A stretch of 49,877 nucleotides of DNA from a virus: IMG/VR virus record IMGVR_UViG_3300048592_000335, positions 1 through 49,877 of that record; one strand, given 5' to 3'. The notes below the pieces were generated by a model, which searched no databases, was not told the DNA's origin, and was given only the letters and a program-made list of their open reading frames with translations. How positions within the stretch are numbered: the first letter of the stretch is position 1; the number at the start of each line of letters is the position of its first letter. This document shows positions 1,388-49,877 of this stretch, in pieces. A program made the position numbers and the translations under genes.

Positions 1388-1903
1388 ATGGCAAAAGCGC
1401 AAAGTCAAAAACCAACCGCAGATTGGCGGGATATTTTCATCAAAGAACTGGCGCGGGTTCCCAACGTGACCGCGGCTGCCAAGAAAGCCAAGGTATCGCG
1501 CATCCACGCTTACACCACGCGGCGAGATGACCCCGACTTTGCAGCGGCCTGGGAAGACGCCCTGGAGCAGAGCGTGGAAAACCTGGAAGGCGAGGTATAC
1601 CGCCGGGCCGCACATGGCACGCTGGAACCTGTGTTCTACCAGGGCGTCAAGGTCGGAAACGTGCGCAAGTACTCCGATACGTTAGCCATGTTCCTCTTGC
1701 GTGCACATAAGCCGGCATTCTATGGGGACCGTAGCAAGGTAGAGATGGAACACAAGGGCAGCATAACGGGCAATGTCGATCACAGCATCAGCGGAGAAAC
1801 AGCACAATCAATCTTTGATGTCTTGGCGGCAGCGGGCGTACTCCAACCCGGAGCTGATGACCCCGAGGCTAACGGCGTACATCCCGCACAAGCCGACGAT
1901 TAA
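1388..1903 (+). CDS. terS: Terminase small subunit
   Basis: A 171-aa protein located directly before the large terminase, as expected for the DNA-recognition subunit of the packaging motor. The N-terminal third carries a helix-turn-helix-like stretch (VTAAAKKAKVSRIHAYTTRR, about residues 28-47). It is followed by a segment typical of phage TerS proteins (EDALEQSVENLEGEVYRRA) and then by the LLRAHKPAFYGDRSKVE region that many small terminases and DNA-binding phage proteins share. The C-terminus is acidic and probably contacts the large subunit. It begins 2 bases after the fibre gene stop and its 3' end overlaps the large subunit by 47 bases in another frame, a usual arrangement for terS/terL. 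Confidence 0.85.
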   Translation: MAKAQSQKPTADWRDIFIKELARVPNVTAAAKKAKVSRIHAYTTRRDDPDFAAAWEDALEQSVENLEGEVYRRAAHGTLEPVFYQGVKVGNVRKYSDTLAMFLLRAHKPAFYGDRSKVEMEHKGSITGNVDHSISGETAQSIFDVLAAAGVLQPGADDPEANGVHPAQADD

Positions 1904-3131
1904 ACAAAGCGCTTTCCTGTTGCTACCACAGCGGGAAGCGTTCTATGGCGGGGAGCCTGGTGGGGGGAAGTCTGATGCGCTCCTGATGGCAGCGTTGCAA
2001 TATGTGGATCACCCTGGCTATGCTGCTATCCTGTTCCGACGTACCTTCCAGGATTTAGCGCTACCTGGTGCGTTGATGGACAGGGCCAAAGAGTGGTTGA
2101 TCGGCACGGATGTGCATTGGGCGGACAAAACCAAGACCTGGACTTTCCCAAGCGGGTCAACGTTGTCTTTTGGATACCTGGAACATGAGGGCGATAAATA
2201 CCGTTACCAGGGCGCCGAATTCCAGTACGTTGGCTTTGATGAGGTAACCCAGTTCAGCGAAACGCAGTACAGCTATTTGTTTAGTCGGTTGCGGCGGTTG
2301 GCTGGATCACCTATCCCAATCCGAATGCGGAGCGCCGGGAATCCGCCCACGACATCGGGCGGGATGTGGGTCAAGGATAGGTTTGTAATCAACCGTGATC
2401 CTAAGCGGCCATTTATCCCGAGCGGCCTTGACGACAATCCGCACTTGGATCGGGATGAATACCTGGAGAGTCTAAGCCATCTTGATGAGGCAACCCGTAA
2501 ATCGTTGTTTGACTGGTTTGCCAGTGTAGAGGGGCTGGTCTTCGCTGATTTCAACGAAGCGAACTTGACCGACGAAGAACCCAACCCGCTGGAACCAACG
2601 CTACTGGCGATTGATGACGGGTACTTCCCAGACCCACGGGCCACGCTCTTTGTACAGAACAAGGGTTCTTATCTGTTGGTCTTTGATGAGCTATACCAGT
2701 ATCGGACCTTGGAAGAAACCACAGTCACGGACATTGTAGGGCGCTATGAGGAACGAGAATTACCCAAGCCGAAAGCGGCGGCTGTCTCGCACGAAGCGCC
2801 GGCATTGCGGGACCGGCTAAGCAAAGCCGGGATTCCCGCCTATTCTTGGTTGCAAACGCAGGCCAGTGACAGCAGTACCCGTGTAGCGGCCATTAAGCTT
2901 ACCCGGTCAATGATTAAGGATGCCAAGGGGCATCGGGGAATCCTGGTGCATCGGCGGTGCAAGAATCTAATCAAGGAAATCACCCAGGGCTATCGTTATC
3001 CCGAGGGGAAACATAGGCCAGATGATAGGCCAGCGGATGGCGATGATCACGCCTGTGAAGCGCTAGAGGGATTAGTCTGGATGCTCTACGGTGGACGCCA
3101 AGGACAAGGCAAAGGCAGTAAGGAGTACTAA
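1857..3131 (+). CDS. terL: Terminase large subunit
   Basis: ATPase-nuclease that pumps and cuts phage DNA at the portal. The ATG at 1857 follows GGAG and gives 424 aa; an in-frame ATG at 1773 would add 28 residues but lies deep inside terS. Walker A is GGEPGGGKS (about residues 31-39) and Walker B is VGFDE (about 125-129), followed by the coupling segment with SAGNPP. The C-terminal half is a RNase H-like nuclease, with acidic residues around LLAIDDGYFPDP and a final HRPDDRPADGDDHACEA segment typical of terminases. The stop overlaps the next ATG (TAATG). The assignment is secure from motifs and position; the packaging type (cos or headful) cannot be read from the sequence. Confidence 0.92.
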   Translation: MTPRLTAYIPHKPTIKQSAFLLLPQREAFYGGEPGGGKSDALLMAALQYVDHPGYAAILFRRTFQDLALPGALMDRAKEWLIGTDVHWADKTKTWTFPSGSTLSFGYLEHEGDKYRYQGAEFQYVGFDEVTQFSETQYSYLFSRLRRLAGSPIPIRMRSAGNPPTTSGGMWVKDRFVINRDPKRPFIPSGLDDNPHLDRDEYLESLSHLDEATRKSLFDWFASVEGLVFADFNEANLTDEEPNPLEPTLLAIDDGYFPDPRATLFVQNKGSYLLVFDELYQYRTLEETTVTDIVGRYEERELPKPKAAAVSHEAPALRDRLSKAGIPAYSWLQTQASDSSTRVAAIKLTRSMIKDAKGHRGILVHRRCKNLIKEITQGYRYPEGKHRPDDRPADGDDHACEALEGLVWMLYGGRQGQGKGSKEY

Positions 3132-3409: not shown

Positions 3410-4917
3410 TCGACATCTTTAGCTTGACCCCGGAACAGCTTGATAAATTCATCAGCATTCAGGCCCAAATTGCGCGCCAAGAGGAAGACGCTGGCAAGGT
3501 CAGGGCGGCGCGTGACTATTACCGTGGTGAGCATCCGACGATGTTGACGCAACGCCAGGAGGAGTTCCTGGGGCGTGCGCTGACTCAGGGGGATTACGGC
3601 TTTGCCCATAACCTGATTAAGTCCGTGATTGACACCTTGCGGGAACGCCTGGATATCACCGGCTTTACGGTCAATGGCGAGGCGGCGGGCGAGGATTCAC
3701 CAGAAGGTCAACTGGCGGCGCTGCTGTGGGAATGGTTCAAGCATAGCAAGATGCCATCGCAACAGATCCGGCTATGGCGGCGGGCCTTGCGTGACGGCAA
3801 AACGTATCTCATGGTGGACTATGACAACGCCCACGGCCGGCCACGCTTCACCCTCCACGAGGTTGACGACGGGACCACCGGCGTTTCCATGCGGCGCGAT
3901 CCCAGTGACGAAAACTATGTGTTGTTCGCTTCCCGCTACTTCCAGGACCTTGACCCCGTGCGGATGATTGAGGGTAGCACGATCAACAGCACTGTGGCGC
4001 GGCGTACGGTCTACATGGCCCACGAAATCCGCAAGTATCGGCGCCAGGGCATTGCCAGCGGCCTGGGATTCATCACCGGTTGGGAACGCATCACAGACCC
4101 CGATGACGCCGGCGTGTGGCCCTTGCCGTGGGTAGACCGCCAGGGCCAACCGTTGGGCGTGCCACTTGTCGAATTTGCCAACCCTGGCGGCTCCGAAGTG
4201 GCCCAGATTGCCGGGCTGCAAAACAGCCTGAATAAGACCTGGCTTGACCTGATTGCGGCGGCGGATGCCAGCGGGTTCCCGTTGATTACATTCAACTACC
4301 GTGACGGTAAGCCCATGCCACTGGGGTTAATCGATGATAGCAACCTGGACGGTGAAGACGAAACCATCATTGCGCCGGGCCGGGGCTTGGAAATCTTTGG
4401 GGGGACCATTGACCGCATCGAAGGCGCAAACCTGGATCACATGATCCAACTCATCTGGACCATTACAGCGGCCATCGGTGGGATTACCAGGACGCCACAG
4501 TATTATCTAAAGCCAATTCTTGGCGTTGACGTGCCGAGCGGGGAAGCCTTGAAACAGTTGGAATCTGGCCTGGTGGCAAAGGCAGAGGAACGTCAACTGG
4601 TCTTTGGGGAAGCAATGGCGGATGCCATGAGTCTGGCCTATCGTGTGGCGCTGACCTTTGGGCCGGGCGGGATTCCGGTCATTGATGACCCGGTGATTGG
4701 GGTCCAGTGGGCGGACGCCAGTACCCGAATGGAAGAAACTGAGAGCAAGATTGCAGAGACTCACAAGGCGCTTGGCGTGCCCGATGTGGCTGTGTGGGCC
4801 CGCCTGGGCTACAGTCCCGAGCAAATCCAACGATTCCAACAAGCCAAAGAACTAGCGCAGGCCACTATGATCGCCAACATCGCGGCGGCGGCGCAACAGC
4901 CAGGGGCAGGAGCATAA
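3406..4917 (+). CDS. Portal protein (SPP1 gp6-like)
   Basis: A 503-aa protein in the canonical position after the terminase. The N-terminal pattern ARDYYRGEHP and HNLIKSVIDTLRERLDITGF, the mid-protein N-G/S-LNKTWLDLIAAADASGFP helix, and IQLIWTITAAIGGITRTPQYYL.. LKQLESGLVAKAEERQLVFG near the C-terminus are typical of the SPP1 gp6-like portal family. Portals form the dodecameric ring at the capsid vertex through which DNA enters and leaves, and dock TerL and the head-tail connector. The gene ends in an Ala/Gln-rich tail and overlaps the next ATG by one base. Confidence 0.88.
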   Translation: MIDIFSLTPEQLDKFISIQAQIARQEEDAGKVRAARDYYRGEHPTMLTQRQEEFLGRALTQGDYGFAHNLIKSVIDTLRERLDITGFTVNGEAAGEDSPEGQLAALLWEWFKHSKMPSQQIRLWRRALRDGKTYLMVDYDNAHGRPRFTLHEVDDGTTGVSMRRDPSDENYVLFASRYFQDLDPVRMIEGSTINSTVARRTVYMAHEIRKYRRQGIASGLGFITGWERITDPDDAGVWPLPWVDRQGQPLGVPLVEFANPGGSEVAQIAGLQNSLNKTWLDLIAAADASGFPLITFNYRDGKPMPLGLIDDSNLDGEDETIIAPGRGLEIFGGTIDRIEGANLDHMIQLIWTITAAIGGITRTPQYYLKPILGVDVPSGEALKQLESGLVAKAEERQLVFGEAMADAMSLAYRVALTFGPGGIPVIDDPVIGVQWADASTRMEETESKIAETHKALGVPDVAVWARLGYSPEQIQRFQQAKELAQATMIANIAAAAQQPGAGA

Positions 4918-5660
4918 TGAGAATTTTAATAATGGGCAATGATGGGGAACCTACTGTTTGGTGGCACGGAAATCGGTTCAGCAAAACACAGAGGCAAGTG
5001 TGGCTTCATTGGCCTGGGAATTACGCCGGCGTTGAGTGGTCTATAGGCAAGAATGGTTTAGGGGCTTATATTCAATGCAATGATCCAGTGGTTGGCGAGG
5101 AAGCGCTGATTATGCACATCCAATTACCGTTCCTCTTTTCAGTTTGGCTAATGGTACAAAATGTACCATTTCTCAAGAAATTACCCGGCGTGAAATGGCA
5201 GGCAGATGACCACGGCCGTGGTGGGGAGCGGGAGTTGTCATTGAAGTTTCACCACGGCGCTATGTGGTGGCGGCTTTGGCGCAATCCCAATGTCGGCTAT
5301 GCACACGACTGGCGTGACAGCAACTTCAACCCGATACGTTTTTTTCTGGGTTATCCAAAGTACAGCGAAGGCCCGCGCAATCACTTCGATTCCTACCTGG
5401 AAATGCCGGAAGGTGTTTACCGGGTTTCCATAGACATTTACACGGCAATCTGGAAGCGTCCCCGTTGGCCTTGGGCAACGCGCATTACCCGCTCCGACAT
5501 CGAATTGAAGGATGGGGTATGGGTTCCGGGCAAAGGTGATAATGGATGGGACATGGATGATGACACCATTTATTCCATGACATGCAATGCTGCCACTGTA
5601 GCCGAAGCGTTAGACCATCTACGGCAATCTGTGTTGCGTGATCGAGAACGGTACGGGTAG
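4917..5660 (+). CDS. Hypothetical protein in head gene cluster
   Basis: A 247-aa protein starting at the ATG within the TAATG junction with the portal gene. It is rich in Trp and aromatic residues (VWWHGNRFSKTQRQVWLHWP near the start, MWWRLWRNPN around residue 118), with no signal peptide or membrane span. I recognise no family. It is the last gene before the 410-bp repeated element at 5680, so it may originally have been directly upstream of the MuF-like gene. A structural or accessory role is inferred only from place. Confidence 0.7.
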   Translation: MRILIMGNDGEPTVWWHGNRFSKTQRQVWLHWPGNYAGVEWSIGKNGLGAYIQCNDPVVGEEALIMHIQLPFLFSVWLMVQNVPFLKKLPGVKWQADDHGRGGERELSLKFHHGAMWWRLWRNPNVGYAHDWRDSNFNPIRFFLGYPKYSEGPRNHFDSYLEMPEGVYRVSIDIYTAIWKRPRWPWATRITRSDIELKDGVWVPGKGDNGWDMDDDTIYSMTCNAATVAEALDHLRQSVLRDRERYG

Positions 5661-5679
5661 CATTCTTTAATTGATTTTT

Positions 5680-6089
5680 GGATCACATTTTTTGCGTTTG
5701 GATCACATTTTTCGTTTTGGATCACTTTTTAAAATCAAAATGTGATCCAGGATTTCAACCAATGCTTGCTACATTTTGGTGGGGTGCTACAGGTGGTAGA
5801 GGTGAAAAAGAGGAAGGGGCCTTATATTAAATAAATGTGTTTGTGGATCACAAGATCACTTTTTTTTTATATTAGATGTCGCGTGGCAACTTTTTCCCTT
5901 ACGTTTTACCTTACGGACGTTCCAAGACATTTTCCGCCAAGATCCATCTATGCGCGCAAAAATGTGATCTTGTGATCCAAATGCCCCTTTTTGGGGTGCT
6001 CTACCACCTGTAAATCTATGGATCACATTTTTAAAACAAAAGTGATCCAAGTCGAAAAAATGTGATCCGTAGCAGAAAAAATGTGATCC
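5680..6089. repeat. 410-bp mirror-symmetric GGATCAC element, copy A
   Basis: This fills the 447-bp gap between two rightward head genes. Left block: three direct GGATCAC motifs about 20 bp apart, the third forming a hairpin with an inverted GTGATCC (5719-5748). Right block: the mirror image (about 6020-6089). Inside lie an inverted pair ACAGGTGGTAGAG / CTCTACCACCTGT and an inverted pair GGATCACAAGATCAC / GTGATCTTGTGATCC around a core of about 100 bp. Reverse-complement copy B lies at 33718-34126 with roughly 94% identity; differences, including one-base indels, fall in spacers and spare the motifs. Open frames crossing it are not credible genes. Possible natures: a MITE-like mobile element, a replication or partition site with iterons, or a protein-binding array. 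No target-site duplication was seen. Confidence 0.85.
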
Positions 6090-6107
6090 ACGGGATAGGC
6101 TGATTGC

Positions 6108-7622
6108 ATGGATAGTATTATTGCAGCGCTGTTGGCATCCGGCGCCATAGATGACGAAACCGCCGGCATACTTCAACGGCAAAACGACATAGACGCCGCT
6201 AGGGTATGGGCTGAAAATGTGCTGACCACGGCAACCCAAGGAGCCTTGACAGCGCAACAGCAGCGGCTTTTGGCGCTCCTGGTTAACACCGAGAACAGCC
6301 CCACGGCCGCCGAGCTAAACACGTTCTGGTCAGCCGAGAATGATCTGCTGTATGATGCCTTGGAACCTGACATAATGCGCTTGGTCTTGGAACGGGCCAC
6401 GCTTGCCGCCGTGACAACAGGCCAAACCTTTGCCTACACCAACGGCCTGGCGAGGGCGTGGGCACAAACCTATTACCGTAGCGCCACCGAGTTTGGATCA
6501 GTCCCTAACCTGAACCAGACGACCCGGCAACAGTTCCAGGCGGTCTTCGATCAATGGCTTGGCGGGCAGCTTGGCCGCCGTGGGTTGCCTGACCTCATCA
6601 CAGCGCTTACGCCCACGTTCGGCCCCGTGCGCGCCCGTGCCATCGGCGTTACTGAGACAACACGTATCTTTATTGAGTCACAGAGAGCCGTGGATCGTGA
6701 TAACCCCTACGTGATTGCTTATCGTTGGCAAACGGCGGCGGATGAACGAGCGGCTGTGTGTCCGATTTGCGGTCCTATGAATGGCCGGATTCGTCGCAAA
6801 GATCAGGGGTGGGGTAGCGGCTTGGATATCCCGGCCCATCCCCGTTGCCGTTGCCACGAAAGCAGGGAAACGGCGGGTACGCTTGGTGAATTGCCCACAG
6901 GGACGCCACAGCCGACGCCACAAGCCACGCCGGAAGCGGTAGCGGCGGTGGGATTGACACCGAGCGGGAAACCAATTAGTAGTGCGTTAGAAATACCGCG
7001 AGCCAGTAACCGAGTAAACGACGCGGCTCGTACCGTTGTTGACGCAATCGACAGCGTGCATGGTGACGGTAAATTGTTCCGTATTCCAATCATTACGCCT
7101 AGCAATATGGGCAATTCACTCGGTGAATTTCGCTATGAGATAAATTACGGGGCACCTCTTGAAATAGCTATCAAATTTAGGGGAGAACGGCTGCATAGCA
7201 CAATAGCGCATGAGATCGGGCACTTTGTGGAAATCGGCGCAATCCGTAACGCTGTAGAGAACAGTGACGCAGTTGCAGCGGCATGGGCCAATGTAGTTGC
7301 CGTGGCAGATGCCACGGCAACGCTAAGCAAATTGCGCGGATTACGGGATGGTGCTGAGCTTTTGACTATTGTTAGGCCAGATGGGACACAGTACGCAGCA
7401 CGCGCCGACAAAACACACCTAGATTACTTGTTAAGGGAAGAAGAAATTTGGGCCCGTGCCTACGCTCAATACATTACCGTGCGCAGTGGTCAGGCTGATT
7501 TACGGAATGACCTAGATGGATTGCGTAATCAGCGCTATTCAACTGCGTGGTCAGATGATGACTTTGAACCAGTGGCGGCGGCCATTGATAATTTATTCAA
7601 GGTGTTGGGGTGGATGAAATGA
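6108..7622 (+). CDS. MuF-like head protein with C-terminal zinc-metallopeptidase domain
   Basis: A 504-aa protein. Residues about 1-250 match the MuF / SPP1 gp7 minor head protein fold, ending with the diagnostic CPICGPMNGRI ... IPAHPRCRCH cysteine/histidine cluster. A Pro/Thr linker (GTPQPTPQATPEA, about 262-278) leads to a second domain with HEIGH at 368-372 (HExxH zinc site) and a Glu-rich helix REEEIWARAYAQY near 443-455 that could give the third ligand. MuF proteins are packaged in the capsid and can be ejected with DNA; C-terminal enzyme or toxin domains on MuF are a known theme. The substrate is unknown. It starts 18 bases after element A with only a weak ribosome-binding site. Confidence 0.82.
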   Translation: MDSIIAALLASGAIDDETAGILQRQNDIDAARVWAENVLTTATQGALTAQQQRLLALLVNTENSPTAAELNTFWSAENDLLYDALEPDIMRLVLERATLAAVTTGQTFAYTNGLARAWAQTYYRSATEFGSVPNLNQTTRQQFQAVFDQWLGGQLGRRGLPDLITALTPTFGPVRARAIGVTETTRIFIESQRAVDRDNPYVIAYRWQTAADERAAVCPICGPMNGRIRRKDQGWGSGLDIPAHPRCRCHESRETAGTLGELPTGTPQPTPQATPEAVAAVGLTPSGKPISSALEIPRASNRVNDAARTVVDAIDSVHGDGKLFRIPIITPSNMGNSLGEFRYEINYGAPLEIAIKFRGERLHSTIAHEIGHFVEIGAIRNAVENSDAVAAAWANVVAVADATATLSKLRGLRDGAELLTIVRPDGTQYAARADKTHLDYLLREEEIWARAYAQYITVRSGQADLRNDLDGLRNQRYSTAWSDDDFEPVAAAIDNLFKVLGWMK

Positions 7623-21213: not shown

Positions 21214-21389
21214 TTCGTCTTTCCAAAATGTCCGTGATGGTATGCCCCGCAAAACTTGCACCGATATGGATGGGTGATCTCCCCGGTTCGGCGGCGTAGG
21301 TAGATACTGGCGCGCTGCGCAGCAGACCAGGTGGGATACCCTCGCTTATTGTTGCAGCTCTTGGGCGGTGCAAAGCGTTCGTTACGCAT
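21210..21389 (-). CDS. Small zinc-binding protein
   Basis: A 59-aa protein from the ATG at 21389 with GTTGGAA upstream. The pattern C-x3-K-x2-Y ... A ... R ... PYRCKFCGAYHHGHFG matches a family of small phage and plasmid proteins with one zinc site near the C-terminus followed by a W/Y-H motif. It overlaps both flanking genes by ATGA or 8 bases. Function unknown, probably nucleic-acid binding. Confidence 0.6.
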   Translation of the reverse strand: MRNERFAPPKSCNNKRGYPTWSAAQRASIYLRRRTGEITHPYRCKFCGAYHHGHFGKTK

Positions 21390-23907
21390 GTTCCAACTCA
21401 AACAGCATCGGTGTACTGCGTTCGGCCTCTGCTTCTTCGCAGTACTTAATACCATTTACCCAGTAAAGCGGGTTCAATTCACAACCCAAACCCCGGCGCC
21501 CCAGCTTTACCGCCATGTAGGGCACTGTGTGAAGACCGGCAAATGGGTCATAAATCAATTCATCAGGGTTGCTATAACGGACGATCAAGCGCTCTACAAT
21601 GTCCAACGGAAACGGACAAACGTGTTTTTCCACCCGGCGGCGCGCCTGCGACATGTTCAAGGTCCGCATGAACAGAACGTCGGTCCACACCGATTCTTCG
21701 TACTCTTCCGGCGCCTGCGGTGGCATCAGCATGAATTTAGCAGGGAGCCGATCGCCCATCGCTTCGTTGAATGCAACGTGTTGGTGATAATCGTAGGGAG
21801 CTTCCAGCGACCATTCCTTATACCAGTTGTAAACCTGGCTACCATCCATGCCGGTTAACAGGCTTGGATCATCCGCCGGCGTGAGGTGTTGACCATTGCT
21901 ACGCCAAAGGCTGTGGGCGTCGATTTGCCAGCGGCCCCGGCTGTAATCCCTCTTATCCTTGCGTACGGGTTCATCGGCGTAGCTGCGGCTTTTATCGGTC
22001 TGTGGCTTACGGAACAGTAACACCTTCTCAGACAGCCCAACGCCCATTTTTGACCCATCCTTGCAACACTCCGACCAGCCTAGGCGGTTGGTTGAATTGT
22101 TTTCCCGTACCACGTCGGTGGGTATAAAGATTTCCCCGTAGCTGACAAAGCCATGCTTCTTAAAGGCCCTGGCGCAATCGTGCGTGAAGTAATCTACTTC
22201 CATCATGCCATGTGGCGTTTGATGGCCGTATAAAAACCGATCCTTTACGTGAATGCACGCCATCCGCCCCGGCTTAAGCACTCGCAATAACTCAGGGATT
22301 AGGAAGTCCATCTGTTGCCAGAAGTCACTGTCGGTCTGGTTGTGGCCAAAATCATTAAGGCTCGCCACATATTCGTAATGGTTGCCAAACGGGATAGAGG
22401 TCACAATCTCATCAACGGAGTTATCCGCCATCATCATGGTTTCGGCAACACAATCATTGTTGATCGAGGTATACCATGTACCTTGCTTCTGTTGGCGCTC
22501 TACACCAAGGCTACGTTGCATCTGTGTCGACAATGCTTCGTTGGTCAGGCCATATTCACGGATGATTTCCCGCATTTTAGCGACCATTTCATCATGTTGT
22601 TGCCACTTGCGCATCAGCACATCAACAACGTGATCCTCGGCGTCTGTGTGGACAATATCGACGATCACTGTATGCTGTTGGCCGTAGCGCTGGAGCCGGT
22701 GCAAACTCTGGATGAAATCACGAAACTTAAAGCCAACACCGGCATAGATGGCCCGGTGGCAATGATGCTGAAAGTTAGCGCCGGCGCCGAACATCTGCGG
22801 CTTGGCGGCTAAGATTTGGATACGGCCGTGGGTGAAGTCCAGTACCAGGCGTTCGGCTTCGTCGGTGTCTTGGCTACCATAGACGGCCTTGGCGTTGGGG
22901 ATGGCTTTGGTGATGGCTTTGCGCTCATCTTCCAAATCGTGCCAAATTACATAATGGTCGGCGGGGTCTGCTGCGACGATTTCAGCAACCTTGGCGATAC
23001 GTGCATCCAGGCTGTTGCGCTTCTCCTTCATTGCCTGTTGAACCCCGGCGGCGGTATCGGCAAATAGGAAGTGTTGACCGAAAGGATCCGTCAACGCTTG
23101 CGCTGCTTCGTGGTCGGCGGCGATACGATGGAAGTTGATCTGCAGCTCTGGCATGACATAACCATCGTCACTGTAACCAAGGTCCGACGGCACATCCACG
23201 AAGATGCACCAGGACGCCACCCACAGCCAGAACTCTTTTTCCATGTGGTCTAACAGGATGAGATCCCCGGCTTTGTCAGGGTTGCGGCCGAAGAATCGTG
23301 TGAGCGCTTGCCCGGCGTCCATTACGTCAAGGAAGTCAGCAAAATAGATCATCTGCCGATAATCGTTCGGCGCAGGCGTGGCGGTGGCTACCCAACGATA
23401 TGGAATGGCTGACAGAATGCGGCTGAACTCCTGCTGGGTCTTCGTGCCCAGATTGCCCAGGATCGCGCCCTCATCCAGCGTGACCCCAGCTATTTCCGAC
23501 TGTAAGAAACCCTCGCTGATTTGGCCGTCGCGGATGCGCTCATAGTTGGTAATCAAATAGGGGGTGGTGGCGTTGAGTCCATCCTCATCATTGCCAATGT
23601 ACTGGAAGACGGTATCCATTGTCGGGCCATCCTCGTGGATGAACTGGTGCTTAACCCCGAGTGGGCAAACCACCAACACCCGGCGCCCGGTCTGCTGGTG
23701 GACTTGGCGCAACAGCTCGATTTGCATACGACTTTTGCCAAGGCCAAACTTGGCGGCAATCAGGGCCTTCCCTCGCTTCAGTGCCCAGGTGGTGATGTCC
23801 ACCTGATGCGGAAACAGGGATGGATGCATGGCGACCGCATCCAGGCCGCTGCTATGGCCAAGCTGCACTTTATCCTTCAAAAACTCGATATACTGTTGCA
23901 GTTTCAT
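21382..23907 (-). CDS. SNF2-like helicase fused to DNA methyltransferase
   Basis: 841 aa. N-terminal SF2 helicase: AKFGLGKS (Walker A, about 52-59), LDEGA (motif II, 144-148), ATATP (motif III), and a second RecA lobe ending QSLHRLQRYGQ (motif VI, about 400-410). C-terminal methyltransferase of the N4-C/N6-A type: TSIPFG at 503-508 in the place of the usual TSPPY/DPPY catalytic loop, and DPFAGLHT at 787-794 followed by GRRGLGCELNP (SAM-binding motif I). Motif IV before motif I gives beta-class order. It probably translocates on DNA and modifies it, protecting phage DNA from restriction. The changed Pro-Phe in the catalytic loop is unusual. Confidence 0.82.
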   Translation of the reverse strand: MKLQQYIEFLKDKVQLGHSSGLDAVAMHPSLFPHQVDITTWALKRGKALIAAKFGLGKSRMQIELLRQVHQQTGRRVLVVCPLGVKHQFIHEDGPTMDTVFQYIGNDEDGLNATTPYLITNYERIRDGQISEGFLQSEIAGVTLDEGAILGNLGTKTQQEFSRILSAIPYRWVATATPAPNDYRQMIYFADFLDVMDAGQALTRFFGRNPDKAGDLILLDHMEKEFWLWVASWCIFVDVPSDLGYSDDGYVMPELQINFHRIAADHEAAQALTDPFGQHFLFADTAAGVQQAMKEKRNSLDARIAKVAEIVAADPADHYVIWHDLEDERKAITKAIPNAKAVYGSQDTDEAERLVLDFTHGRIQILAAKPQMFGAGANFQHHCHRAIYAGVGFKFRDFIQSLHRLQRYGQQHTVIVDIVHTDAEDHVVDVLMRKWQQHDEMVAKMREIIREYGLTNEALSTQMQRSLGVERQQKQGTWYTSINNDCVAETMMMADNSVDEIVTSIPFGNHYEYVASLNDFGHNQTDSDFWQQMDFLIPELLRVLKPGRMACIHVKDRFLYGHQTPHGMMEVDYFTHDCARAFKKHGFVSYGEIFIPTDVVRENNSTNRLGWSECCKDGSKMGVGLSEKVLLFRKPQTDKSRSYADEPVRKDKRDYSRGRWQIDAHSLWRSNGQHLTPADDPSLLTGMDGSQVYNWYKEWSLEAPYDYHQHVAFNEAMGDRLPAKFMLMPPQAPEEYEESVWTDVLFMRTLNMSQARRRVEKHVCPFPLDIVERLIVRYSNPDELIYDPFAGLHTVPYMAVKLGRRGLGCELNPLYWVNGIKYCEEAEAERSTPMLFELEHA

Positions 23908-24290
23908 CAACTCAAATCCTTTTCAATATGGGCAATGGTTGCCATCAAATCAGGATTGCGATCCTGAATGGCATCACGCATAGCTGCGGTCAACTCGACG
24001 GCAACCAATGATGCGTGGCGCCATTTCTGTTCTACGGTCATTCCCAAAATTGCTTGGCAACGGGTCACGCAATCATCAATAACAGCCTTTAAGATCGCCA
24101 GATCCGTGACCGGCTGCGGCGTTGGTCGCGTCCACTCCTGGCACTCTGCGCGGTGCATAGTCTGTTGCGCAAACCGATTCCAGACGTAGCGCTTACCACA
24201 GCCGGGACACTCCAGGCGGTTGGCGTCACCTTCGACAGGGAGCCAACCAGCAGCTACCCGGCTGGCCATCACATCTGCTTTGTTTTTCAT
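23907..24290 (-). CDS. Zinc-finger hypothetical protein
   Basis: A 127-aa protein with CPGCGKRYVWNRFAQQTMHRAEC (residues about 28-50), a C2HC zinc finger in classical spacing, followed by a helical C-terminal half (LAILKAVIDDCVTRCQAIL). It overlaps both neighbours by a few bases (TGATG and ATGA). It may recruit the adjacent helicase-methyltransferase to nucleic acid; that link is inferred from coupling alone. Confidence 0.6.
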   Translation of the reverse strand: MKNKADVMASRVAAGWLPVEGDANRLECPGCGKRYVWNRFAQQTMHRAECQEWTRPTPQPVTDLAILKAVIDDCVTRCQAILGMTVEQKWRHASLVAVELTAAMRDAIQDRNPDLMATIAHIEKDLS

Positions 24291-24882: not shown

Positions 24883-24911
24883 AGTCTACCATGATTACCA
24901 TTGCGTGTCAA
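24883..24911 (-). promoter_or_regulatory. Leftward sigma70-type promoter PL1
   Basis: TTGACA (24906-24911), a 17-base spacer and TAGACT (24883-24888), read on the minus strand, upstream of the small membrane gene. It lies inside the operator-like repeat and would be occluded by a repressor bound there. Confidence 0.8.
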
Positions 24912-24946
24912 GCATCAATTTGCGCAAATCGCAATTTTAGTTTGCG
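24901..24946. promoter_or_regulatory. Operator-like repeat O1
   Basis: A 46-bp block, 44/46 identical to 33642-33687. It contains TTTGCGCAAATCGCAA, with TTGCG/CGCAA half-sites, overlapping the -35 box of PL1. Related sites lie between the two HTH regulator genes, so this is probably an operator of the lysogeny switch. Confidence 0.7.
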
Positions 24947-33149: not shown

Positions 33150-33560
33150 TTACAGCCCTAGTTCGGTGGCGGTGGCTTGGGCAACCACGGCGCCGGTGTG
33201 CGTGCGGTCCATGACCATGTGGGCGGCGGTGAGGGCGGCAATTTCCCGCATGGCGTAGAAAAGATTTTTCAGGCGGCTGATTTCGATTTCTGTTTCGGCA
33301 ATGTTATCTTCAGCATCCGATACGGCTCCCAGTAATGACAGGTAATTTTTGTCAGCGAACAGCGCCGCCTTCTGGTTAACTTTGCGTTCTCCGTCGTTCT
33401 TACCCCAGTCCTGGCGACTGGCCAGAACTTCGGTTTCGCGCCGCTCAAGCAGGGTCTTAGCCATCTTCAAGCCCTTGCGGAATTCCAACAGGTCACCTTC
33501 CTGGCTGGCGATGTCAGACGGTAAATCAAGTAGACTGTAAACAATGTCTTGGTAATCCAT
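33150..33560 (-). CDS. Coiled-coil protein, first gene of leftward operon
   Basis: 136 aa from ATG 33560, with AAAGGG upstream; longer frames starting upstream cross the promoter and are rejected. Two long heptad-like helices (LLEFRKGLKMAKTLLERRET and AVSDAEDNIAETEIEISRLK) separated by a short loop. The pattern resembles small recombination-mediator or host-nuclease-inhibitor coiled-coil proteins, without specific proof. It is the most promoter-proximal gene of the operon. Confidence 0.6.
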   Translation of the reverse strand: MDYQDIVYSLLDLPSDIASQEGDLLEFRKGLKMAKTLLERRETEVLASRQDWGKNDGERKVNQKAALFADKNYLSLLGAVSDAEDNIAETEIEISRLKNLFYAMREIAALTAAHMVMDRTHTGAVVAQATATELGL

Positions 33561-33623: not shown

Positions 33624-33652
33624 AGTATAGCACTGCCTTAGTTGCGTGTCAA
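33624..33652 (-). promoter_or_regulatory. Leftward sigma70-type promoter PL2
   Basis: TTGACA (33647-33652), a 17-base spacer and TATACT (33624-33629) on the minus strand, about 65 bases before the first gene of the replication operon. Operator-like sites lie on both sides: 33642-33687, and a weaker TTGCGTAAATCGGTAA around 33603-33618. Confidence 0.85.
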
Positions 33653-33687
33653 GCATCAATTTGCGCAAATCGCAATATTTGTTTGCG
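33642..33687. promoter_or_regulatory. Operator-like repeat O2
   Basis: Second copy of the 46-bp block seen at 24901-24946, with two mismatches. It overlaps the -35 box of PL2 in the same way as O1 does at PL1, so both leftward promoters are probably controlled together. Confidence 0.72.
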
Positions 33688-33717
33688 ACAATCGAAACCA
33701 TGAGCCGGTACCACCTT

Positions 33718-34126
33718 GGATCACATTTTTCAGCCTATGGATCACATTTTTTCGACTTGGATCACTTTTGTTTTAAAAATGTGATCCATAGATTTACAGG
33801 TGGTAGAGCACCCCAAAAACACCCGTTTGGATCACAAGATCACATTTTTGCGTGCATAGATGGATCTTGGCGGAAAATGCCTTGGAACGCCCGTAAGGTG
33901 GAGCGTAAGGGAAAAAGTTGCCACGCGACATCTAATATAAAAAAAAAGTGATCTTGTGATCCACAAACACATTTATTTAATATAAGGCCCTTCCTCTTTT
34001 TTGCCTCTACCACCTGTAACACCCCTCAAAAACGTAGCAATCATTGGTTGAAATCTTGGATCACATTTTGATTTTAAAAAGTGATCCAAAACGAAAAATG
34101 TGATCCAAACGCAAAAAATGTGATCC
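33718..34126. repeat. 409-bp mirror-symmetric GGATCAC element, copy B
   Basis: The reverse-complement copy of 5680-6089. All GGATCAC/GTGATCC motifs, the AGGTGGTAGAG inverted pair and the GATCACAAGATCAC inverted pair are kept. Differences are single bases and short indels in spacers (for example the stretch between 33811 and 33830). It occupies most of the 772-bp gap between the leftward promoter PL2 and the rightward promoter at 34266. Its outer ends lie 31 bp from operator O2 and 140 bp from the rightward promoter. Two overlapping frames across it are not conserved in copy A because of indels and are not called genes. Confidence 0.85.
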
Positions 34127-34265
34127 AAAAATAGCCTGCAACCAGCATCGGATGGGCGGGCGGCATGGTCACCCCCTCGGACCCCAAGGGGCGCAAACCT
34201 TACGAAAACAAAAGGAGAAATCCCGAAATTCGCCAAAACTCGTTGAAATTCGTCAAAATTGGGCG

Positions 34266-34294
34266 TTGACATGTTACGTAACATGTGTTATACT
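34266..34294 (+). promoter_or_regulatory. Rightward promoter with palindromic operator
   Basis: TTGACA (34266-34271), a 17-base spacer and TATACT (34289-34294). The spacer carries a perfect 18-bp palindrome ACATGTTACGTAACATGT (34269-34286) that overlaps the -35 box, an ideal repressor site different from the TTGCG-type operators. Upstream, AAATTCGCCAAAA and AAATTCGTCAAAA are A/T-rich near-repeats that could act as an UP element. Confidence 0.82.
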
Positions 34295-34332: not shown

Positions 34333-34560
34333 ATGAAACACTTAGTGCACGAAGTAAACGGCGAAATCAAAGTAGTGACCGGGACAGTGGCAGAACTAGA
34401 GCAAGTCGAGACGGATGGGAACGAACGGTGGTATAACGCCCACGCAGTCACAGCAGAACAGGCCAAGCGGAATTACGCAGAAATCACCGGCTTTGAGAAG
34501 TGGCAAGACGAAATGGTAGCGGCCTACGGCGAGAACGAAGACAACTGGCCAGAAGAATAG
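34333..34560 (+). CDS. Small acidic early protein
   Basis: 75 aa, first gene of a strong rightward promoter, with AGGAGCGACGAA before ATG. Strongly acidic with an N-terminal strand region (HEVNGEIKVVTGTVAELEQV) and a helical C-terminus ending ENEDNWPEE. Phages often encode small acidic proteins that mimic DNA or inhibit host enzymes; no specific target is visible. Confidence 0.6.
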   Translation: MKHLVHEVNGEIKVVTGTVAELEQVETDGNERWYNAHAVTAEQAKRNYAEITGFEKWQDEMVAAYGENEDNWPEE

Positions 34561-34606: not shown

Positions 34607-34795
34607 ATGGCAAAAGGACAAAAGTACAACCCAGAGTGGGCAGACAGTAAAGAGGCACGAAAAGAGCGCCAAGCAACCCGCCGGGCGGCGCTCCTGGCCA
34701 AACTGGCGGCGGCGGGGTGGGATGGGGAATCCGAGTTTCTGACGGCCATCATCAAGGGTGTGGTGGAAGTGCCGCAGAAGCCAAAGGAGAAATAA
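34607..34795 (+). CDS. Small basic protein (62 aa)
   Basis: Second gene of the short rightward operon, with AAAGGAG upstream and followed at once by a strong terminator. Rich in Lys/Arg/Ala (KEARKERQATRRAALLAKLA), probably helical and nucleic-acid binding. No family recognised. Confidence 0.6.
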   Translation: MAKGQKYNPEWADSKEARKERQATRRAALLAKLAAAGWDGESEFLTAIIKGVVEVPQKPKEK

Positions 34796-48592: not shown

Positions 48593-49877
48593 CGCAACAG
48601 ATCAGTATCGGGGTAACACTCGGAGCGGGCAAGGCCGGCCAAGCGGTCGGCTACCGTATCCTAAATCACGATGGCAGCACGTACAGCGCTTTTACCACCA
48701 CGGGCGTGGTAGAGACGGTGGCGGGGACGTACGTCGTCAATGCACTGGTTGACGCGCCGGACGGTGGCGGTCGTGTGGTGTGGGGCATCTCCGGTACTGA
48801 TTATCTGGTGGACGTTCTGAACCCCATCACCACGGCCAACCTGACCACGGCTGCGATTGCTGCGATTTGGGCGGCGCTAACCAGCGGGCTAACCACCGTG
48901 GGCAGTATCGGGAAACTGTTGGCAGATAATATCAACGCCACAATTTCCAGCCGTTCCACGTTGACCACAGCCCAGGTCAATGCCGAGGCCGATCAAGCTC
49001 TTGCCGACGTTGGCTTGACTTCGACCGTTACCGGCCGCATTGACGCCGCGGTGTCTACCAGATCCACGTTGACGGCCGCCGACGTGTGGACCCATGCCAG
49101 CCGTAGCCTTACCACATTTGGCACATTAGCCGCCGATGTGTGGGCCGTGGCTACCAGGACCATTACCGGCGGAACCATTGCCACGGTATCGGACAAAACC
49201 GGCTACAGCCTAAGCAGCGCCGGGATTACGGCGATATGGGCCGCACTAACTTCCGGCCTAACCACGGTTGGTAGTGTTGGGAAATTGCTGGTAGACAACA
49301 TCAACGCCACTATCAGCAGCCGGTCAACGTTGACAGCAGCGCAAGTCAACACCGAGGCTGATCAGGCCTTGGCGGATGTTGGCCTGACTCCGACAGTTAC
49401 AGGCCGGATTGACGCGGCTATCAGTACACGTTCCACCTTGACCACAGCCCAGGTCAATGCCGAGGCGGATACCGCCCTTGCAGACGTTGGCCTGACTTCG
49501 ACGGTAACAGGCCGGATTGACGCGGCGGTCAGTACCCGTTCCACCTTGACCGCTGCTGATGTGTGGGCACATGCAAGCCGTAGCCTTACCACCTTTGGCA
49601 CTTTGGCGGCTGACGTGTGGGCCGTGGCGACTCGCACGATCACGGGTGGCACTGTCAGCGCGGTATCGGACAAGACCGGCTATAGCCTAAGCAGTGCAGG
49701 CATTACGGCGATTTGGGCAGCGCTGACCTCTGGCCTAACCACGGTTGGTAGTGTTGGGAAATTGCTGGTAGACAACATCAACGCCACTATCAGCAGCCGG
49801 TCAACGTTGACAGCAGCGCAAGTCAACACCGAGGCTGATCAGGCCTTGGCGGATGTTGGCCTGACTCCGACAGTTAC
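48589..49877 (+). CDS. Repetitive tail fibre protein, N-terminal part
   Basis: Opens at ATG 48589 and stays open through the window end; joined to base 1 the frame continues to the stop at 1385 (1162+1385 = 2547 bp, divisible by three). The first 80 residues form a unique beta domain (ISIGVTLGAGKAGQAVGYRI), probably virion attachment. Then come tandem repeats: VGSIGKLLADNINATISSRS, TAQVNAEADQALADVGLT, TGRIDAAVSTRSTLTAADVW, TLAADVWAVATRTITGGT, DKTGYSLSSAGITAIWAALT. Successive large units begin near 48895, 49258 and 49735. The gene forms a long fibre whose length may vary with repeat number. Confidence 0.78.
   Translation, partial: MTQQISIGVTLGAGKAGQAVGYRILNHDGSTYSAFTTTGVVETVAGTYVVNALVDAPDGGGRVVWGISGTDYLVDVLNPITTANLTTAAIAAIWAALTSGLTTVGSIGKLLADNINATISSRSTLTTAQVNAEADQALADVGLTSTVTGRIDAAVSTRSTLTAADVWTHASRSLTTFGTLAADVWAVATRTITGGTIATVSDKTGYSLSSAGITAIWAALTSGLTTVGSVGKLLVDNINATISSRSTLTAAQVNTEADQALADVGLTPTVTGRIDAAISTRSTLTTAQVNAEADTALADVGLTSTVTGRIDAAVSTRSTLTAADVWAHASRSLTTFGTLAADVWAVATRTITGGTVSAVSDKTGYSLSSAGITAIWAALTSGLTTVGSVGKLLVDNINATISSRSTLTAAQVNTEADQALADVGLTPTV
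49274..49400. repeat. Internal identical copy of the terminal overlap
   Basis: 127 bp, base-for-base the same as 1-127 and 49751-49877. It lies 477 bp (159 codons) before the terminal copy, so it is one period of the fibre gene repeat. Confidence 0.9.
49751..49877. repeat. Terminal overlap, copy at right end
   Basis: Same 127 bp as at position 1. Joining the two ends keeps the reading frame of the fibre gene. Confidence 0.9.

Follow-up and report, generated by a model that had tools for sequence, protein, structure and literature searches.

The block at positions 5679 to 6090 (copy A), which lies within the head operon of a temperate siphophage, is probably a non-autonomous, MITE-like foldback mobile element that occurs twice in a phage genome that is itself probably complete. 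The record analysed here (the window, 49,877 bases in all) begins and ends with the same 127 bases (1-127 and 49751-49877) and therefore probably represents a complete circular assembly. It encodes a terminase, an SPP1-type portal, a MuF-like protein, a scaffold, a major head protein and a tape measure, as well as a serine integrase, a prim-pol, a helicase and a methylase-helicase fusion, a gene set that identifies a temperate siphophage. A preliminary description of copy A had recognised a real block and had correctly read its anatomy, i.e., a motif array with mirrored ends and nested inverted pairs, but it drew the limits one base too narrow on each side and overlooked the second, inverted copy (copy B). 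The features of the two copies are as follows.

5679-6090, plus strand: copy A, 412 bp, between the gene at 4794-5660 and the MuF gene at 6108-7622
5679-5749, plus strand: left arm of copy A, with TGGATCAC(A/T)TTTT three times in direct orientation, 19-20 bp apart, followed by a single inverted site
5788-5801, plus strand: left partner of the inner inverted repeat, TACAGGTGGTAGAG
5844-5865, plus strand: inner double site, TGGATCACAAGATCACTTTTTT
5866-5957, plus strand: core, 92 bp
5958-5979, plus strand: inverted partner of the inner double site, AAAAATGTGATCTTGTGATCCA
5999-6012, plus strand: right partner of the inner inverted repeat, CTCTACCACCTGTA
6019-6090, plus strand: right arm of copy A, mirror of the left arm, one site, then three inverted sites
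33717-34127, minus strand: copy B, 411 bp, 94% identical to copy A and inverted, between divergent promoter-like sites

The window contains 37 copies of the motif GGATCAC against 6.1 expected, a count reached in none of 100 shuffles, and 10 of these occurrences fall inside 5680-6089 and 10 more inside 33718-34126. The ten in copy A stand in an order (+ + + -, then +, then -, then + - - -) that is mirrored around the core. Together with two AAGATCAC sites, copy A holds 12 sites, 10 of them pointing inward. The termini form a 15-bp inverted pair (TGGATCACATTTTTT and AAAAAATGTGATCCA) that is perfect in copy A, although the match across the whole arrays is imperfect; the inner 14-bp pair TACAGGTGGTAGAG and CTCTACCACCTGTA is also perfect, and the GATCACAAGATCAC pair is nested within a 33-bp inverted pair (82%) whose partners stand 92 nt apart. 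The element is poorer in GC than the window (38% vs 55%). All motifs contain GATC, as had been stated, but GATC itself is not enriched window-wide (214 seen vs 190 expected). The MuF gene starts 17 nt past the right end of copy A and, by inspection, is preceded only by a weak Shine-Dalgarno-like stretch (GGGATAGG), in agreement with the weak ribosome-binding site proposed earlier.

The 94% identity of the two copies extends across the full length, the non-motif core included, and alignment with flanks shows both copies to be bounded by TGGATCACATTTTT and AAAAATGTGATCCA, whereas the flanks are unrelated and share only the bases ATTTT on the left side. The same ends within unrelated flanks mark the block as a discrete unit that was moved or duplicated, and the second copy, the unrelated flanks and the identical termini lend good support to the MITE-like mobile element that had been among the candidates of the preliminary description. 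The copies differ in 24 of 413 aligned columns, only one of which is a motif column, although the motif accounts for 146 columns (35%; P = 3e-4), and the left arm shows no difference at all. All 24 GATCAC sites of the two copies score between 17 and 31.7, compared with at most 12.7 elsewhere in the window, where no single or partial site of comparable quality was found, other promoters included. This preservation fits selection for transposase binding, though a phage regulator would give the same pattern. An assembly chimera is unlikely given the 24 differences; the copies are also identical over no more than 87 bp at a stretch, less than the 127 bp by which the ends of the contig overlap, and this too argues against it.

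Either copy is predicted to fold into one giant, very stable hairpin, both as RNA (-168.5 kcal/mol, z -13.4) and as DNA (z -11.4). The folding thus supports the capacity to form a large cruciform or foldback site, another of the roles suggested earlier, and this support consists of predicted structure. In the consensus fold, eight of the differing columns take part in base pairs, and pairing is kept at each of them, with two pairs altered on both sides; since the consensus was derived from the same two sequences, these differences are supporting rather than independent evidence. Within the core hairpin (5901-5906/5915-5920), ACGTTT/GGACGT in copy A corresponds to ACGCTC/GGGCGT in copy B, so that one pair is altered on both sides and another on one side. 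No ORF is conserved between the copies: each frame either meets an indel or a stop codon or differs mostly at amino-acid-altering positions. This rules out a protein-coding block, and no conserved protein of the kind that would have argued against the preliminary description is present. Additionally, neither istA nor istB genes were found inside the element or among the window proteins scanned.

For a non-coding, discrete unit that carries repeated, probably protein-binding sites in inverted terminal arrays and is found at two unrelated places, the best reading is a non-autonomous element mobilised in trans. The recombinase or transposase would be supplied by the host or by a co-resident element; in the phage itself no recombinase was recognised besides the serine integrase. 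Such an enzyme would bind TGGATCAC(A/T)TTTT in the arrays at the two ends, pair these ends and insert the unit. No target-site duplication was found at either copy, even with the ends shifted by several bases or the flanks swapped as by inversion. The enzyme may therefore be one that makes no duplications, possibly with a preference for insertion after ATTTT; alternatively, a duplication may have been lost by later recombination. A DDE-type transposase is hardest to reconcile with this absence. The 94% identity of the copies suggests that a duplication should still show, and two copies could also be explained by duplication without transposition. Mobility of the HUH/IS200 type was considered and would agree with the missing duplication and with a left flank fixed as ATTTT, but the right end holds no matching cleavage sequence. 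As a tentative possibility, the two copies could represent a phage-adapted foldback class outside the known IS families, inserted after ATTTT without target duplication by a transposase or recombinase acting on mostly inward mirror arrays.

Several alternatives to a mobile element are less likely. The block could be a phage control region, i.e., a duplicated operator or silencer array bound by a phage protein, such that one regulator governs both the head and the early operons. The location of copy B between two divergent promoter-like sites (minus strand, 33652-33624; plus strand, 34266-34294), the better preservation of motif sites than of the remaining columns, and a site spacing of 19-20 bp that would permit cooperative binding all speak for such a role. 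It is nevertheless unlikely: the other promoters carry no single or partial sites, the early promoters bear a different repeat of the TTGCGATTTGCGCAA type (33642-33687, 24901-24946), and operators do not need the whole 412 bp, core included, to be common to the copies. Replication or partition iterons (an origin or a centromere), also proposed in the preliminary description, would account for an AT-rich array of direct repeats about two helical turns apart and for the position of copy B upstream of the primase and helicase genes. However, the unit is symmetric and closed with sharp ends, and the array is present twice, in the head operon and in the early control region, always as the whole 412-bp unit; the proposal gained no positive support, and we regard it as most improbable. 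Changes in skew track gene direction, which makes skew uninformative on an origin. There is equally little chance that the block is a structured RNA gene or an mRNA hairpin controlling downstream genes. The very stable predicted fold and the pairing-preserving differences would suit an RNA, but the fold follows directly from the inverted DNA arrays, and copy B lies upstream of the early promoter-like site, outside the leader. Moreover, copy A contains no promoter-like site or terminator, and its only Rfam matches fall below the gathering scores, with no family above chance.

Derivation from the IS21 family, with the sites as IstA-binding end repeats and the block either as an IS21 MITE or as a junction of rearranged ends, is very unlikely. 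At each end, IS21 elements have two or more direct repeats (PMC10122671). The two-site matches in GTDB genomes (contigs L012 and L028) include elements with genes between TGGATCACTTTT end repeats that are IstA/IstB-like by a reading of their translations, and a short element with IS21-like ends in a Myxococcales genome bears the same motif. The likeness is that TGGATCAC(N)TTTT recurs within each of the two ends, and it came from searching by that very motif. In the GTDB elements the motif points outward, whereas 10 of the 12 sites of the phage block point inward, and their repeats are mostly about 23-24 bp apart rather than 19-20 bp. IS5376, a member of the IS21 family, made 5-bp duplications (PMC10122671), and direct repeats of 7-8 bp are seen by inspection at two of the Myxococcales copies, whereas the phage block shows none. 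Because of its mostly inward sites, shorter spacing and missing duplication, the phage element, which lacks the family's combination of outward direct repeats at its ends with a short duplication of the target, is not filed under IS21. The Myxococcales element itself, about 280 bp long, is present in three copies in one MAG (contigs L011, at 3912-4190, L013 and L018), with outward TGGATCACTTTT repeats at both ends and, by inspection, 7-8 bp direct repeats at two copies.

Among known systems, MITEs offer the broadest likeness to the phage element. Their general features are a length under 500 bp, inverted termini, AT-rich sequence and a stable stem-loop (PMC10969869). The phage block is likewise short (412 and 411 bp), non-coding, AT-rich, intergenic and strongly stem-looped, with 15-bp terminal inverted repeats that are perfect in copy A, and it exists in more than one copy with unrelated flanks. 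In contrast to MITEs, it is inverted over nearly its whole length, holds 12 sites in mirror order, has terminal arrays that exceed typical MITE ends in length and complexity, and is present twice in one phage. It also shows neither a target-site duplication, such as younger copies should carry, nor ends matching an autonomous transposon, and for want of the duplication we call it MITE-like rather than a member of the class. A second comparison is the mycobacteriophage mobile element MPME1, a phage-borne element of 439 bp with inverted repeats, which adds 6 bp at its left end instead of making an ordinary duplication (PMC3029335). MPME1 and MPME2 are the closest phage-borne analogue of the block in size and in the absence of an ordinary duplication. 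MPMEs, however, code for a small protein, and their inverted repeats are no more than short, whereas the phage block has no conserved ORF and its arms span the whole element; blastn against the phage collection gave no mycobacteriophage match at E values up to 10. Foldback/Galileo elements share long inverted termini composed of short subrepeats in tandem, but they are eukaryotic and kilobase-sized, with a P-superfamily transposase and target duplications.

Searches for relatives were made mostly with exact patterns, so that diverged relatives or partners could be missed. Within that scope, the core pattern found no third copy among IMG/VR and GTDB contigs (85,000 GTDB genomes), the three-site pattern had no match in IMG/VR, the palindrome pattern had none, and no autonomous partner with inward arrays appeared among the matches in IMG/VR or GTDB genomes. 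The two-site patterns matched IS21-like ends, collagen-like coding repeats and unrelated tandem repeats (e.g., contig L069). A blastn search against phages and plasmids gave chance-level matches only, and a DNA search of 400 Chloroflexota genomes returned three weak matches of 23-24 bp with no further sites alongside. No relative of this design was found in the collections searched, and its twelve-site, mostly inward arrangement and missing target duplication fit none of the element families compared; most likely the block is a small transposon that travels as the passenger of an outside enzyme. Reports of small non-autonomous elements in phages are, to our knowledge, rare, and spare DNA comes at a cost in such genomes. 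This one occurs twice in a single phage, once in the head operon, with its likely binding sites kept and the rest drifting, and it offers a clean case for asking which enzyme moves such passengers between phages and their hosts.

Searches of IMG/VR with the portal, terminase and helicase identified no close phage relative, and hence no true empty site. In a distant Chloroflexota prophage, the terminase, portal and MuF genes abut or overlap without a gap (the first two roles being assigned from order and size), and the ORF ahead of the MuF homologue overlaps it; this order gives only indirect support to an insertion of copy A. Terminase relatives (62-65% identity over about half of the protein) come from one Chloroflexota genome and from Peribacillus plasmids. 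Residues ~36-257 of the large subunit (1773-3131) match at this level and the rest is unmatched, possibly reflecting a mosaic gene, and the Chloroflexota contig ends soon after.

Copy B occupies the early control region, upstream of the primase and helicase genes, between the leftward and rightward promoter-like sites described above. The idea that it too precedes a start codon closely (by 15 nt), as copy A does, was dropped, since a promoter-like site falls inside that ORF; the start at 33701 is likely wrong and the ATG at 33560 appears the better one. The rightward site is strong (11/12), overlaps the palindrome ATGTTACGTAACAT and precedes small ORFs on the plus strand (34333-34560, 34607-34795). 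The early-promoter repeats at 24901-24946 and 33642-33687 are 46 bp long and 96% identical, and each adjoins a leftward TTGACA promoter-like site with an operator-like TTGCGATTTGCGCAA stretch, an arrangement that probably places two early operons under a common repressor. Elsewhere in the window, the presence of related repeats in 1-873 and in 48823-49877 suggests that a repetitive gene runs across the junction, and positions 21382-23910 encode an 842-aa protein in which an SNF2-type helicase domain is fused to an N6/N4 DNA methylase domain.
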